DNA of 64,000 bases from Rubritalea squalenifaciens DSM 18772 (lineage in GTDB: Bacteria; Verrucomicrobiota; Verrucomicrobiia; Verrucomicrobiales; Akkermansiaceae): the NCBI RefSeq assembly GCF_900141815.1, contig NZ_FQYR01000005.1, positions 558,001 through 622,000 of the forward strand, in the 5' to 3' direction. A model generated the notes under the pieces. The model was not told the DNA's origin. It saw only the letters and a program-made list of their open reading frames with translations, and made no database searches. The translations under genes were made by a program, and so were the position numbers. Below are positions 48,126 to 52,276 of this stretch, piece after piece. How positions within the stretch are numbered: the stretch's first letter is position 1; the number at the start of each line of letters is the position of its first letter.

Positions 48126-49046
48126 CTAAAGCTGCAATAGGTGGAATTGACAGGCATCCTCCGTATTTTTCTTTGGCCGAGTCTTCCGTCTTTTCATGAG
48201 AAAGCTGGGGACTTCATCTGTTTTCTTGAAACAGAATCGCTCGGGAAGCTTGCTGTAAATGGAGCGTGGAGCTCCTGATGCACCGTCGCCTTTGTAGCGG
48301 CTGCCACTCTCCGGGGTATGGTAGAAGATATCCCGAATGCCAAGTTCCTCGCGAATGAAGAAAATGGCGGCACTGAGCATGGCTTCATCCCACATCTTGG
48401 AGTGGGCCTTCATGTGCCTCTCCCAGTATTGTTCGATAAACTGGGCGGGTAGCTTTTTCTGCCCACACCGTATGAATTTACGTTTCCCTTCACGGATATA
48501 ATTCAGCCACCACAGGGTTTCCCGGATGCGGTCGTTTTGAATTTCCTCGATGAGAGCTTCACCTTTAGCCAGATCTAGATCGATCCTTGCCCAAGCTAGG
48601 GTGCGGTTACGACCCTCATGAATGGGGTGGTAGCGTAGCTCGAAGGGGTCGACATCACGCTCGGGAAGATACTTTTCCAGATAGCAGGCGTCGGCATTGT
48701 TCAGGTTGAGCTGGAGCACGAGATTCCAGCTCTCCTTTCCCTTGCGACTAGTTTGGACCCAATCGAATCGGTCTAGAGTCAGGCGAAATGCTTCAGCCTT
48801 CTCCGGGTAGAGCATGGCCAGCTGCTCCCTGGAAAGGGTGGTGCTACCCAGACTACCCAACCACGACCTGAGCTGTGGCTTGTTGAGAAGTTTTCCAAAG
48901 TTGCTTTGTTTGATCCAGTGAACGGCTTGTGGCTGCTCCAGGGAGTATTTAAGTAGTTGGACTGCATACCAGTCCTTGGCATAGTTGAAGAGAGTGCGCT
49001 CCTTGGGCAGGCAGGCGACGATCTCTTCCAGTTCGTCTAGTTTCAT
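48126..49046 (-). CDS. Hypothetical protein, unrecognised family
   Basis: About 306 residues from ATG 49046 (MKLDELEEIVACLPKERTLF); an upstream ATG at 49106 is possible. No signal peptide or membrane span, rich in Trp, Lys, Arg and Tyr. Notable segments are FNYAKDWYAVQLLKYSLEQ, FELRYHPIHEGRNRTLAWAR, LWWLNYIREGKRKFIRCGQKK, and the tail YHTPESGSRYKGDG, SIYSKLPERFCF and MKRRKTRPKK. Predicted cytosolic alpha/beta protein with a basic C-terminus. I cannot name a family. It lies next to the iteron-like array; whether they are linked is unknown. Confidence 0.72.
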   Translation of the reverse strand: MKLDELEEIVACLPKERTLFNYAKDWYAVQLLKYSLEQPQAVHWIKQSNFGKLLNKPQLRSWLGSLGSTTLSREQLAMLYPEKAEAFRLTLDRFDWVQTSRKGKESWNLVLQLNLNNADACYLEKYLPERDVDPFELRYHPIHEGRNRTLAWARIDLDLAKGEALIEEIQNDRIRETLWWLNYIREGKRKFIRCGQKKLPAQFIEQYWERHMKAHSKMWDEAMLSAAIFFIREELGIRDIFYHTPESGSRYKGDGASGAPRSIYSKLPERFCFKKTDEVPSFLMKRRKTRPKKNTEDACQFHLLQL

Positions 49047-49155
49047 CTTGTCTGATGCGCGGAGGTGCCAAGACGTAGGCACAATGATTCCGCGGCTTTG
49101 TATCATTTAACATAGCTGCTTGTTCTCACGACACGGGTGGAGAACTTGAATAAGA

Positions 49156-49202
49156 ATGATGCTCGAAACTGCTCTAACGAAATGGTTAGAGCGGAGCATC
49201 AT
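49156..49202. other. Long two-part stem-loop
   Basis: Outer stem ATGATGCTC (49156-49164) / GAGCATCAT (49194-49202) and inner stem GCTCTAAC (49171-49178) / GTTAGAGC (49185-49192), loop GAAATG, joined by a 6-nt/1-nt internal bulge. There is no T run. Could be a structured RNA or a DNA cruciform next to the repeat array. Confidence 0.6.
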
Positions 49203-49308
49203 CAGCTATGGACAAGAGGGAAAAGCATGGGAGTGAACTTAGGTTCGGAAAGGGAGCATAGCTACCTGAAGCTCAATGTCAAGTTAGGGCGTCTGCTCGT
49301 GGGAATAG

Positions 49309-49388
49309 CTTGTGGGCAAGTTGTGAATGGATTGTGAACAAGTCCTTGTGAATAATTTGTGCGCAAGATGTGGATGAGTTGTGAATAA
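49309..49388 (+). repeat. Array of seven 11-bp iteron-like units resembling DnaA boxes
   Basis: Seven units of pattern N-TTGTG-NNNAA start at 49309, 49320, 49331, 49345, 49356, 49367 and 49378. The period is exactly 11 bp except for a 3-bp insert (GTC) after the third unit. The 9-mers are TGTGGGCAA, TGTGAATGG, TGTGAACAA, TGTGAATAA, TGTGCGCAA, TGTGGATGA and TGTGAATAA, one to three changes from the DnaA box TGTGGATAA. Nine-base boxes spaced by two bases match the geometry of cooperative DnaA sites. An A/T-rich stretch (AACCTATTTTTGC) follows immediately. The rest of 49107-49557 holds no gene I can support. Confidence 0.85.
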
Positions 49389-49522
49389 ACCTATTTTTGC
49401 AAGAGGGTACAAACATTCTTATTTCAGAGATTTCAACTCTGATGATGGTGACTAAGAAAAGCTACGATGCTTGGATAAAGGACCAGAGAAGCGTGAGTGG
49501 CAGCACTATAAATTCAGGTAAT

Positions 49523-49551
49523 AAAAAAGGCGCGGTGGGAACCGCGCCTTT
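49523..49551 (-). terminator. Rho-independent terminator of the 59-residue lipoprotein
   Basis: Perfect 11-bp stem AAAGGCGCGGT / ACCGCGCCTTT with loop GGGA. The reverse strand continues with a T run. It marks the end of the leuS-side transcript. Confidence 0.88.
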
Positions 49552-49557
49552 AATGTT

Positions 49558-49737
49558 TTAATCTTTGTCTTTCTCCTCCTCGTCGTCATCGGCGAACTGG
49601 TCGATGCCGGCGCCGATGGCCTTGCCAGTGACGGTGACGGCCGAGCTAGCCACGCTGCCTGCCACTTTGACCGGAGTCGTGATCAGGGCGCAGGAGCTGC
49701 AGAGCAGGGGAAGAAGCAGGAGTAGAAGGTAACGCAT
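49558..49737 (-). CDS. Small lipoprotein downstream of leuS
   Basis: A 59-residue protein: signal MRYLLLLLLPLLCSSC (lipobox Cys16) followed by LITTPVKVAGSVASSAVTVT and an acidic tail (DDDEEEKDKD). The pattern Cys-hydrophobic-TPVKVAG with a Val/Ala/Gly-rich stretch and acidic end resembles small bacterial lipoproteins of unknown role. Its ATG is 7 bp after the leuS stop, so it is likely co-transcribed. Confidence 0.72.
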   Translation of the reverse strand: MRYLLLLLLPLLCSSCALITTPVKVAGSVASSAVTVTGKAIGAGIDQFADDDEEEKDKD

Positions 49738-49744
49738 CGCTCTA

Positions 49745-52276
49745 TTAGTTCGCTACGATGTTAACCAGACGACCAGGCACCACGATCACTTTACGGATCG
49801 TGTTACCGTCTGTGTATTGCTTCACGTTCTCGTCGTTCTTGGCGAGTTCCTCGATCTCTTCTTTGGAAGCATCCTTGCCGACCATGAGTTTGGCGCGGAC
49901 CTTGCCATTCACCTGCACAACGATCTGAACCTCACTCTCGACGAGGTATTCCTCCTTGAAAGTTGGCCAGGTCTGCTCGCAGAGCTGAGTTTCGTTTCCA
50001 ATGATGGCGTTCAGTTCCTCAGTGAGGTGAGGAGCGAAGGGATTGAGGCACTTGAGGAAGTCGACGAAGAGTGCGGTCGGTACCTTGTCTGCCTTGGTGA
50101 AGGCATTGGTGCAGATCATCATCTGGGAAATGGCGGTGTTGAAGCTAAGTTTCTCGATATCTTCGGTGACCTTCTTGATGGTCTCATGAGTGACCTTGAG
50201 AAGTTCCTTGTTAGAGGTGGCTTCGTCATCGGTGAGCTTGCCGCTCAGTTTCCAGCTGTCGCCGTCCTGAGTCATGGCCACACGCCAGACTTTGGCAAGG
50301 AAGCGGGACACGCCCTCCACGCCTTTCATCTGCCATGGCTTCACCTGCTCAAGCGGTCCCATGAACATTTCGTAGAGACGCAGTGAGTCGGCACCGTAGC
50401 CATTGACTACGTCATCCGGGTTGACCACGTTGCCGAGAGACTTGGACATCTTCTGACCATCTTCCCCGAGAATAAGACCCTGGTTGACCAACTTCTGGAA
50501 TGGCTCGTTGGTGCTCAGGTGACCGAGGTCGAAGAGAACCTTGTGCCAGAATCGGGCGTAGAGCAGGTGGAGCACGGCGTGCTCGGTACCGCCAACGTAG
50601 AGATCTACGCCGCCCGGGTTGTTATTGGCACCCATCCAGTATTCCTCGGCTTCCTTGGAGATGAAGCGTTCGGTGTTGTTAGGATCACAGTAGCGCAGGT
50701 AGTACCAGCAGGAGCCAGCCCACTGAGGCATGGTGTTGGTCTCACGCTTGGAGGTCTCTGAGTAGTTGATCCACTCGGTAGCCTTGGCAAGCGGGCCTTC
50801 CGGAGAACCGGTCGGCTTGAAGTCTTCCATTTCTGGCTGCAACACTGGCAGCTCGGATTCGGAGACAGTCTTGTGCTTGCCATCTTCCCAAAGGATTGGG
50901 AAAGGCTCGCCCCAGTATCGCTGACGTGAGAAGAGCCAGTCACGCAGTTTGAAGTTAGTCTTGAAGGTACCCTTCTTGTTCTCCACCAGCCAAGTGATGA
51001 TGGCTTTCTTGGCATCCTTGGTCTTCATGCCGTCCAGGAAGCCAGAGTTTACGGAAGTCCCATTGCCGGTGAAGCCCTGCCAGTCACTGTCGTCGTTAGG
51101 CTGGACCACCTGAATGATTGGCAGCTCGAACTTCTGGGCGAACTCGAAGTCACGCTCATCGTGAGCTGGTACGGCCATGATCGCGCCTGTGCCGTAGCCC
51201 ATCATCACGTAGTCGGCGATCCACACAGGGATTTTCTCGCCGTTGACCGGGTTGGTGGCATAGGCACCAGTCGGTACGCCGGACTTGTGCTTGTTCAGAT
51301 CGCCACGCTCGAGGTCGGACTTGAGTGCACAGGCTTTGACATATTCTTCGACAGCATCCTTCTGCTCCGCAGTGGTGATTTGACTTACCAGCGGGTGCTC
51401 AGGTGCCAGCACCATGTAGGTGGCGCCGAAAAGTGTATCAGGGCGGGTGGTGAAGACGGTGACTTCATTGCCTTCGATATCGAAATGAACTTCGGCACCA
51501 GTGGACTTGCCGATCCAGTTGCGCTGCAGCAGTTTGATAGACTCCGGCCAGTCGAGTGGCTCCAGGTCATCGATCAGGCGCTGAGCGTATTTGGTGATAC
51601 GCAGCATCCACTGCTTGAGCGGACGGCGCTCCACGATGTGGCCTTTGTTCTTCCATTCTTCGACTTCCTCGTTTGCCAGTACGGTGCCCAGGTCAGGGGA
51701 CCAGTTCACGGGAGCTTCGGAAACGAAGGCCAAGCGCTCGGCATTAATTTGCTCACGGCTGTAGCCTTTGGCCTCCAGCTCGCTGATTGGGCGGGCGGTC
51801 TTGGTATCCTCACAGAAGTAGGAATTGTACAGTTGGATGAAGATCCACTGGGTCCACTTCACGTAGCCAGGATCGGTGGTATTGACCTCACGGTCCCAGT
51901 CGTAGCCGAAGCCGAGAGACTTGAGCTGCTTGCGGAAGTTGTTGACGTTCTGCTCGGTGGTGATGCGCGGGTGCTGTCCAGTCTTGATAGCGTATTGCTC
52001 GGCAGGCAGGCCGAAGGCGTCCCAACCCATCGGGTGCAGCACGTTGTGGCCGTTCATCTTCTTGAATCGGCCGAGAATGTCTGTAGCGGTGTATCCCTCA
52101 GGGTGGCCTACGTGGAGGCCGGCACCGGACGGATAAGGGAACATGTCGAGAATGAAGTACTTCGGCTTGGAGGCATCGAAGTCCGCATCGCCCGGGTTCG
52201 GGGTGCGGAAGGTCTTATTCTCGTCCCAGATGGCTTGCCACTTAGGCTCGAAGGTATCGAATGGGAAAGGGTTCAT
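49745..52276 (-). CDS. leuS: Leucyl-tRNA synthetase
   Basis: An 843-residue class I synthetase. The HIGH motif is [21 protein letters not shown] (HVGH near residue 55). The large CP1 editing domain holds [24 protein letters not shown] and the Asp of [22 protein letters not shown] is [16 protein letters not shown] near residue 630. The C-terminal region is [14 protein letters not shown]. It charges tRNA(Leu). Sequence and length are typical. Confidence 0.97.

Follow-up and report, generated by a model that had tools for sequence, protein, structure and literature searches.

A regularly spaced array of DnaA-box-like sites outside the likely replication origin of Rubritalea squalenifaciens DSM 18772

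Rows of DnaA-box-like 9-mers may mark an origin of replication, a site that draws DnaA away from the origin, or the operator of a neighboring gene, and the question is which of these applies to such a row in R. squalenifaciens DSM 18772 (genome G000; 4.32 Mb, 17 contigs). The array lies in a window of 64,000 nucleotides (G000:C5:558001-622000), which is the whole stretch of DNA that was analyzed; positions given without a contig refer to this window. Seven 9-mers follow each other head-to-tail, with steps of 11, 11, 14, 11, 11, and 11 bp between their TGTG starts (Table 1). This agrees with the strict 11-bp spacing interrupted by one 3-bp slip that an earlier note, made from the letters alone, had described, as does the count of one to three changes that separate each 9-mer from TGTGGATAA. 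The array is built from two halves of 42 nt with four units each (a direct repeat, 79% identical, 47 bp apart), because of which a degenerate eighth unit could be recognized upstream of the seven; all eight units are on one strand. The unit formula proposed earlier, N-TTGTG-NNNAA, holds for the seven TGTG 9-mers in outline but not in every letter, as one unit starts with ATGTG, two are without the final AA, and the eighth unit has to be added. The sequence TGTGRAYAA is matched exactly by three of the eight units, within 56 bp, and two units are at least two changes away from any usual consensus.

Table 1. Features of the array and its surroundings (window positions; the first coordinate of each of the seven main units is its TGTG start)
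Feature	Position	Strand	Remark
ORF of 326 aa, start facing the array	48126..49106	-	No match in Pfam, NCBIfam, or PADLOC
Strong hairpin, presumed leader of the 326-aa gene	49155..49202	-	-23.1 kcal/mol, z -4.28; 9-nt outer arms
Promoter-like site (TTGACA, 16, TATGCT), directed away from the array toward the 326-aa gene	49255..49282	-	Single match, against 0.7 in shuffles
First 42-nt half of the array	49300..49341	+	79% identity to 49347-49388
Degenerate eighth unit TGGGAATAG, opening the first half	49300..49308	+	Aligned to the second half via the 42-nt repeat
DnaA-box-like unit TGTGGGCAA	49311..49319	+	
DnaA-box-like unit TGTGAATGG	49322..49330	+	Weak
DnaA-box-like unit TGTGAACAA	49333..49341	+	Near consensus; letters recur at the likely oriC
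Second 42-nt half of the array	49347..49388	+	Repeat alignment
DnaA-box-like unit TGTGAATAA	49347..49355	+	Letters recur at the likely oriC
DnaA-box-like unit TGTGCGCAA	49358..49366	+	
DnaA-box-like unit TGTGGATGA	49369..49377	+	
DnaA-box-like unit TGTGAATAA	49380..49388	+	
Terminator-like hairpin, setting the array apart from the lipoprotein-like ORF and from leuS	49526..49551		

The array is real and non-random, and its DnaA-box-like sites are clustered beyond chance, as is expected of a DnaA-box cluster outside oriC. With a fixed box score, it contains six strong boxes within 110 bp, and the best cluster in each of 60 dinucleotide shuffles of the window contained two (38 shuffles), three (21 shuffles), or four (one shuffle). 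Similarly, TGTG recurs at exact 11-bp steps up to four times in a row in the array, and the longest such run was one (41 cases), two (255 cases), or three (four cases) in 300 mononucleotide shuffles.

The array is not the main chromosomal origin. The origin was sought via the GC skew, sampled at points along the contigs, and the minus-to-plus turn that characterizes an oriC was absent at the array. Indeed, the skew is positive in all 32 two-kb bins of the window, so that the absence of a skew flip reported earlier was borne out, and at 14 of the 15 points sampled on C5 (the exception being -0.112 at 350 kb). It is positive at 12 of 12 points on C4 as well. On C3, positive values extend to 750 kb and the points at 900 and 1050 kb are negative, representing a terminus-like turn. 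On C2, all four points as far as 240 kb are negative, and all 12 points from 320 kb onward are positive; the smaller contigs gave a mixed picture, with five tiny contigs masked. When the region C2:220-320 kb was followed in 2.5-kb steps, the skew was weak and of mixed sign until about 262 kb, and positive values predominated from 265 kb onward. The cumulative skew displayed two lows of nearly the same depth, one at about 245 kb and one at about 262 kb; two stretches of the region read N. Beside this turn, upstream of ribD (C2:263603-263873; L110 3603-3873), seven strong boxes occur within 300 bp, adjoining a 60-bp stretch of 80% A+T. The best boxes of this cluster, TGTGAATAA and TGTGAACAA, have the same letters as the best array units. 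The cluster at C2:263.6-263.9 kb is the likely oriC of this genome, far from dnaA and on another contig than the array.

The A+T content points in the same direction, since it amounts to 60-65% at the array (60-bp steps starting at 49300-49420) and the most A/T-rich 60 bp between the flanking ORFs reach 70%, compared with 80% beside the ribD-upstream cluster; this shortfall in an A/T-rich unwinding element is a matter of degree. The A/T-rich stretch said to follow the array was therefore recovered, albeit as a modest one. A strict test for the DnaA-trio gave a run of 0-1 at the array and of 1 at the likely oriC and does not separate the two. An origin at the array, one of the roles first considered, was rejected in view of the positive skew, the lower A+T content, and the better candidate at C2:263.6 kb. 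The earlier note had itself stated that a skew minimum elsewhere, together with lack of conservation of the array in close relatives, would refute its proposal; both were found, which tells against an origin and has no bearing on a role in DnaA binding.

Other places for the origin were considered too. The genome contains a single DnaA match (C3:513.5 kb), which confirms that no dnaA gene is located in the window; the skew is positive on both sides of it, and at most two strong boxes occur within 110 bp, so that an origin beside dnaA was rejected. The same applied to the surroundings of parB (C4:565.5 kb), where the skew is positive on both sides despite three strong boxes in the upstream region (L001 1501-1592; C4:565527 onward). 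In a near-complete genome of the same genus (G005), the skew is negative at seven of seven points before 1.70 Mb, mixed between 1.70 and 1.74 Mb, and positive at seven of seven points between 1.85 and 3.5 Mb, one of them reaching only 0.002. The local cumulative low at 1722-1724 kb coincides with the ribD-upstream cluster of this genome, the leuS gene of which is about 0.66 Mb away from its ribD locus. At least four strong boxes within 300 bp were present at seven of 30 ribD loci, that of R. squalenifaciens included. The cluster was missing at the ribD locus of six out of nine members of the genus, indicating that the ribD arrangement is not universal.

The letters of the array units strongly suggest that DnaA binds them. 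Their resemblance to DnaA boxes is based on two observations: the likely oriC is composed of the same letters, and a similar tandem pair, TGTGAATAATTTGTGGATAC, is found upstream of nrdB (C4:106160-106179; L320 2661-2680), the same or nearly identical in four further genomes (G023, G024, G033, and G035). The DnaA protein is a full, standard-type DnaA according to NCBIfam and carries FGGRDHGTVIHA near its end in an alignment to a solved DnaA structure. Furthermore, the genome contains 127 exact copies of TGTGRAYAA versus 57 of the reversed pattern. Among the first 100 of these 127 matches, which do not extend to the array, the densest groups are a field at C4:304.8-305.4 kb (eight copies) and the ribD-upstream cluster (four copies).

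The 11-bp step is encountered elsewhere in the order. Within the order, 34 of 58 genomes contain pairs of TGTGRAYAA exactly 11 bp apart (one mismatch allowed), with 69 matches overall, and the reversed pattern gave none; in R. squalenifaciens, five such pairs are located at C2:185.8 kb, at C4:106.2 kb, at C4:305 kb (two pairs), and in the array. A pattern with an 11-bp period was found at 35 places in 26 of 195 genomes, compared with 15 matches in 10 genomes for the reversed control. On visual inspection, 19 of these 35 resemble DnaA boxes, three of them in the array, and the rest resemble simple repeats or chance matches. A rough control with a 10-bp period gave matches, mostly simple repeats, in seven of the 195 genomes and none in the genome under study. 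Five of the loci matched with the 11-bp period (L228, L229, L230, L232, and L233) were set aside as probable coding coincidences, each being situated inside one long reading frame, which is that of DNA polymerase III alpha in the case of L230. In 1.5 Mb of loci, a set that is too small for firm conclusions and includes regions picked around likely origins, same-strand boxes formed three pairs at 10 bp, three at 11 bp, three at 21 bp, two at 18 bp, and two at 22 bp.

Several other box-rich places were observed. The field on C4 (C4:304805-305354; L319 2806-3355) is larger than the array, with 14 strong DnaA-like boxes, 11 of which are on the minus strand; eight of the 14 are exact copies of TGTGRAYAA. 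The field is located between ORFs that have no match in Pfam. It is probably not an origin, because the skew of C4 is positive at 300 kb. DnaA-like boxes also occur near dnaB in four genomes, namely G066 (L255), G165 (L214), G022 (L322), and G038 (L328). In G024, TGTGAATAAGTGGTGAATAA or a close variant of it is found 244-688 bp from the start of contigs C20, C37, C42, C46, and C47, so that this recurrent pair may belong to a repeat element located at the ends of contigs. Genome G007, which possesses a ribD box cluster too, contains a second set of boxes with an 11-bp step beside a TrkA-type gene (C6; L330 3134-3264).

The surroundings of the array are gene-free, as previously described, since no ORF longer than 66 aa lies between the 326-aa ORF, which starts at 49106, and a lipoprotein-like ORF of 59 aa (49558-49737). 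Beyond the latter lies leuS, the product of which has its nearest relatives among proteins labeled Verrucomicrobiales, Akkermansiaceae, Rubritalea, and Persicirhabdus. The 326-aa protein had no Pfam, NCBIfam, or PADLOC match and no good sequence match in the PDB; homologues of its gene were found in 14 of 97 genomes of the family, that of R. squalenifaciens included. The promoter-like site, at 18 bp from the edge of the array, reads from the array side through the strong hairpin to this gene; it is a weak candidate, because the single match compares with 0.7 matches expected in shuffles, which is chance level. No second copy of this hairpin was found in the genome among the scored candidates.

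In the relatives, the array was not recovered. A DNA search with positions 49109-49745 against 57 other genomes left the array unmatched; three of these genomes matched, solely inside 49580-49632, within the lipoprotein-like ORF. A comparison of 80 leuS loci gave no cluster larger than three strong boxes in 110 bp. After exclusion of three loci with leuS cut by a contig end, 72 of the remaining 77 had at least 700 bp downstream, and the first kb downstream of leuS in these 72 contained zero to four strong boxes, none of them grouped as in the array. Of the 12 genomes of the genus, 11 had a recognizable leuS, and among these 11 the array was seen solely in that of R. squalenifaciens. A position kept among relatives, as for a datA-type locus, is hence not what the examined leuS loci display. 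Because of this lack of conservation, the array may be recent or dispensable. Similarly, none of the 13 other loci at which a homologue of the 326-aa gene occurs had a box cluster, and a conserved operator of this gene was rejected for that reason.

With moderate confidence, the array is considered to be a species-restricted DnaA-box cluster outside oriC that would carry a head-to-tail DnaA filament and act as a sink for DnaA, as a regulatory site of the 326-aa gene, or as both. DnaA would first occupy the near-consensus boxes at 49333, 49347, and 49380, after which the weaker same-strand boxes between these anchors, 2 bp apart, would be filled, resulting in a filament of about six to eight protomers on 90 bp. 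Such a head-to-tail filament is expected because all boxes face one way. Opening of the DNA is not expected, because no strong unwinding element adjoins the array. The filament would drain the free DnaA pool in step with the copy number of the locus, an effect that has been proposed for datA and for the DnaA-box clusters of Bacillus. It could also affect the putative promoter of the 326-aa gene, which is close by on the minus strand. Both roles are plausible, the sink in view of the 127 copies of TGTGRAYAA in the genome and the control site in view of the promoter-like match, and both would follow from DnaA binding.

This proposal finds partial parallels in known systems. In the oriC of Escherichia coli, weak arrayed sites of the same-strand type, separated by 2-bp gaps, fill cooperatively from strong sites (PMC6070618), in line with the earlier suggestion that the 2-bp gaps of the array suit cooperative DnaA assembly; the array differs in that it is not at the origin and some of its units are near consensus. 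The datA locus of E. coli, which titrates DnaA and promotes ATP hydrolysis, is described in PMC5742627 as an intergenic-type box cluster away from oriC with a minimal region of 183 bp, spaced boxes, an essential IHF site, and essential boxes in one direction. The eight array units share this single direction, whereas they lie 2 bp apart, with one 5-bp gap. Clusters of DnaA boxes outside oriC have been described for E. coli, Bacillus, and Streptomyces (PMC5742627, PMC5295017). In Bacillus subtilis, deletion of six such clusters leads to early initiation, although the same source elsewhere calls the regulatory role of the Bacillus clusters not significant (PMC5295017). The resemblance of the array to the B. 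subtilis and Streptomyces clusters resides in its location outside the origin; a difference is that several clusters act jointly in those bacteria.

A narrower role, in which the array would set the expression of the 326-aa gene as a DnaA-controlled promoter without any global effect on DnaA supply, is rather unlikely. DnaA is known to regulate nrdAB of E. coli from boxes upstream of the promoter (PMC8203912), and the nrdB pair is an example, from this lineage, of DnaA-like sites placed at a promoter; moreover, the array ends close to the promoter-like site. However, that site does not exceed chance, and 13 loci with homologues of the gene are devoid of a box cluster. Compared with the nrdAB arrangement, the array is longer and adjoins a functionally uncharacterized gene. 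The uncharacterized regulation of this gene, as well as the varying letters of the units and the restriction of the array to one species in the data, would also suit an operator array of another transcription factor with a TTGTG-type site that resembles a DnaA box. Such a factor is nevertheless improbable, as the units equal boxes of the likely oriC of the same genome and boxes of these letters with an 11-bp step are widespread in the order.

A secondary, dormant, or decayed replication origin is a very improbable explanation. In its favor, boxes with an 11-bp step are located between dnaB and the gene for D-Tyr-tRNA deacylase in the one-contig genome G066, which belongs to another genus, no more than about 2 kb away from a local turn of the skew (the whole-genome skew being weak and noisy), and such arrays can therefore occur at origins in the family. 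In R. squalenifaciens, the positive skew throughout the window and at nearly all sampled points of C5, the lower A+T content than beside the ribD-upstream cluster, and the relatives that have no array at leuS argue against it. Least probable of all is a DARS-like site promoting the release of ADP from DnaA, i.e. the reactivation locus mentioned in the earlier note. The array does resemble DARS1 and DARS2 of E. coli in that it groups DnaA-box-like sites in an intergenic region apart from the likely oriC, but DARS contains a head-to-head pair (PMC5742627), whereas every array box points the same way, so that a filament is expected and reactivation is not.

The array is best read as a further DnaA-box cluster outside oriC, distinguished by its unusually regular geometry; the kind itself is already known from datA and the Bacillus clusters. 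A wider view, in which the array would be a node of a DnaA-control network of the Verrucomicrobiales, is quite unlikely. In such a network, uninterrupted, helically phased head-to-tail arrays, rather than IHF-bent sites, would store or inactivate ATP-DnaA, and the array would form an independently arisen datA-like system together with the field at C4:304.8-305.4 kb, the nrdB pair, and the parB boxes, with the likely oriC by ribD, away from dnaA. A literature search, judged by title, found no paper on oriC or DnaA boxes in Verrucomicrobiota or Akkermansia. The likely oriC beside ribD and the pair at the nrdB promoter are directly testable predictions. If DnaA binds the array, the latter would be a simple natural template for the assembly of a head-to-tail DnaA filament outside the origin and would give a handle on replication timing in Verrucomicrobiota.
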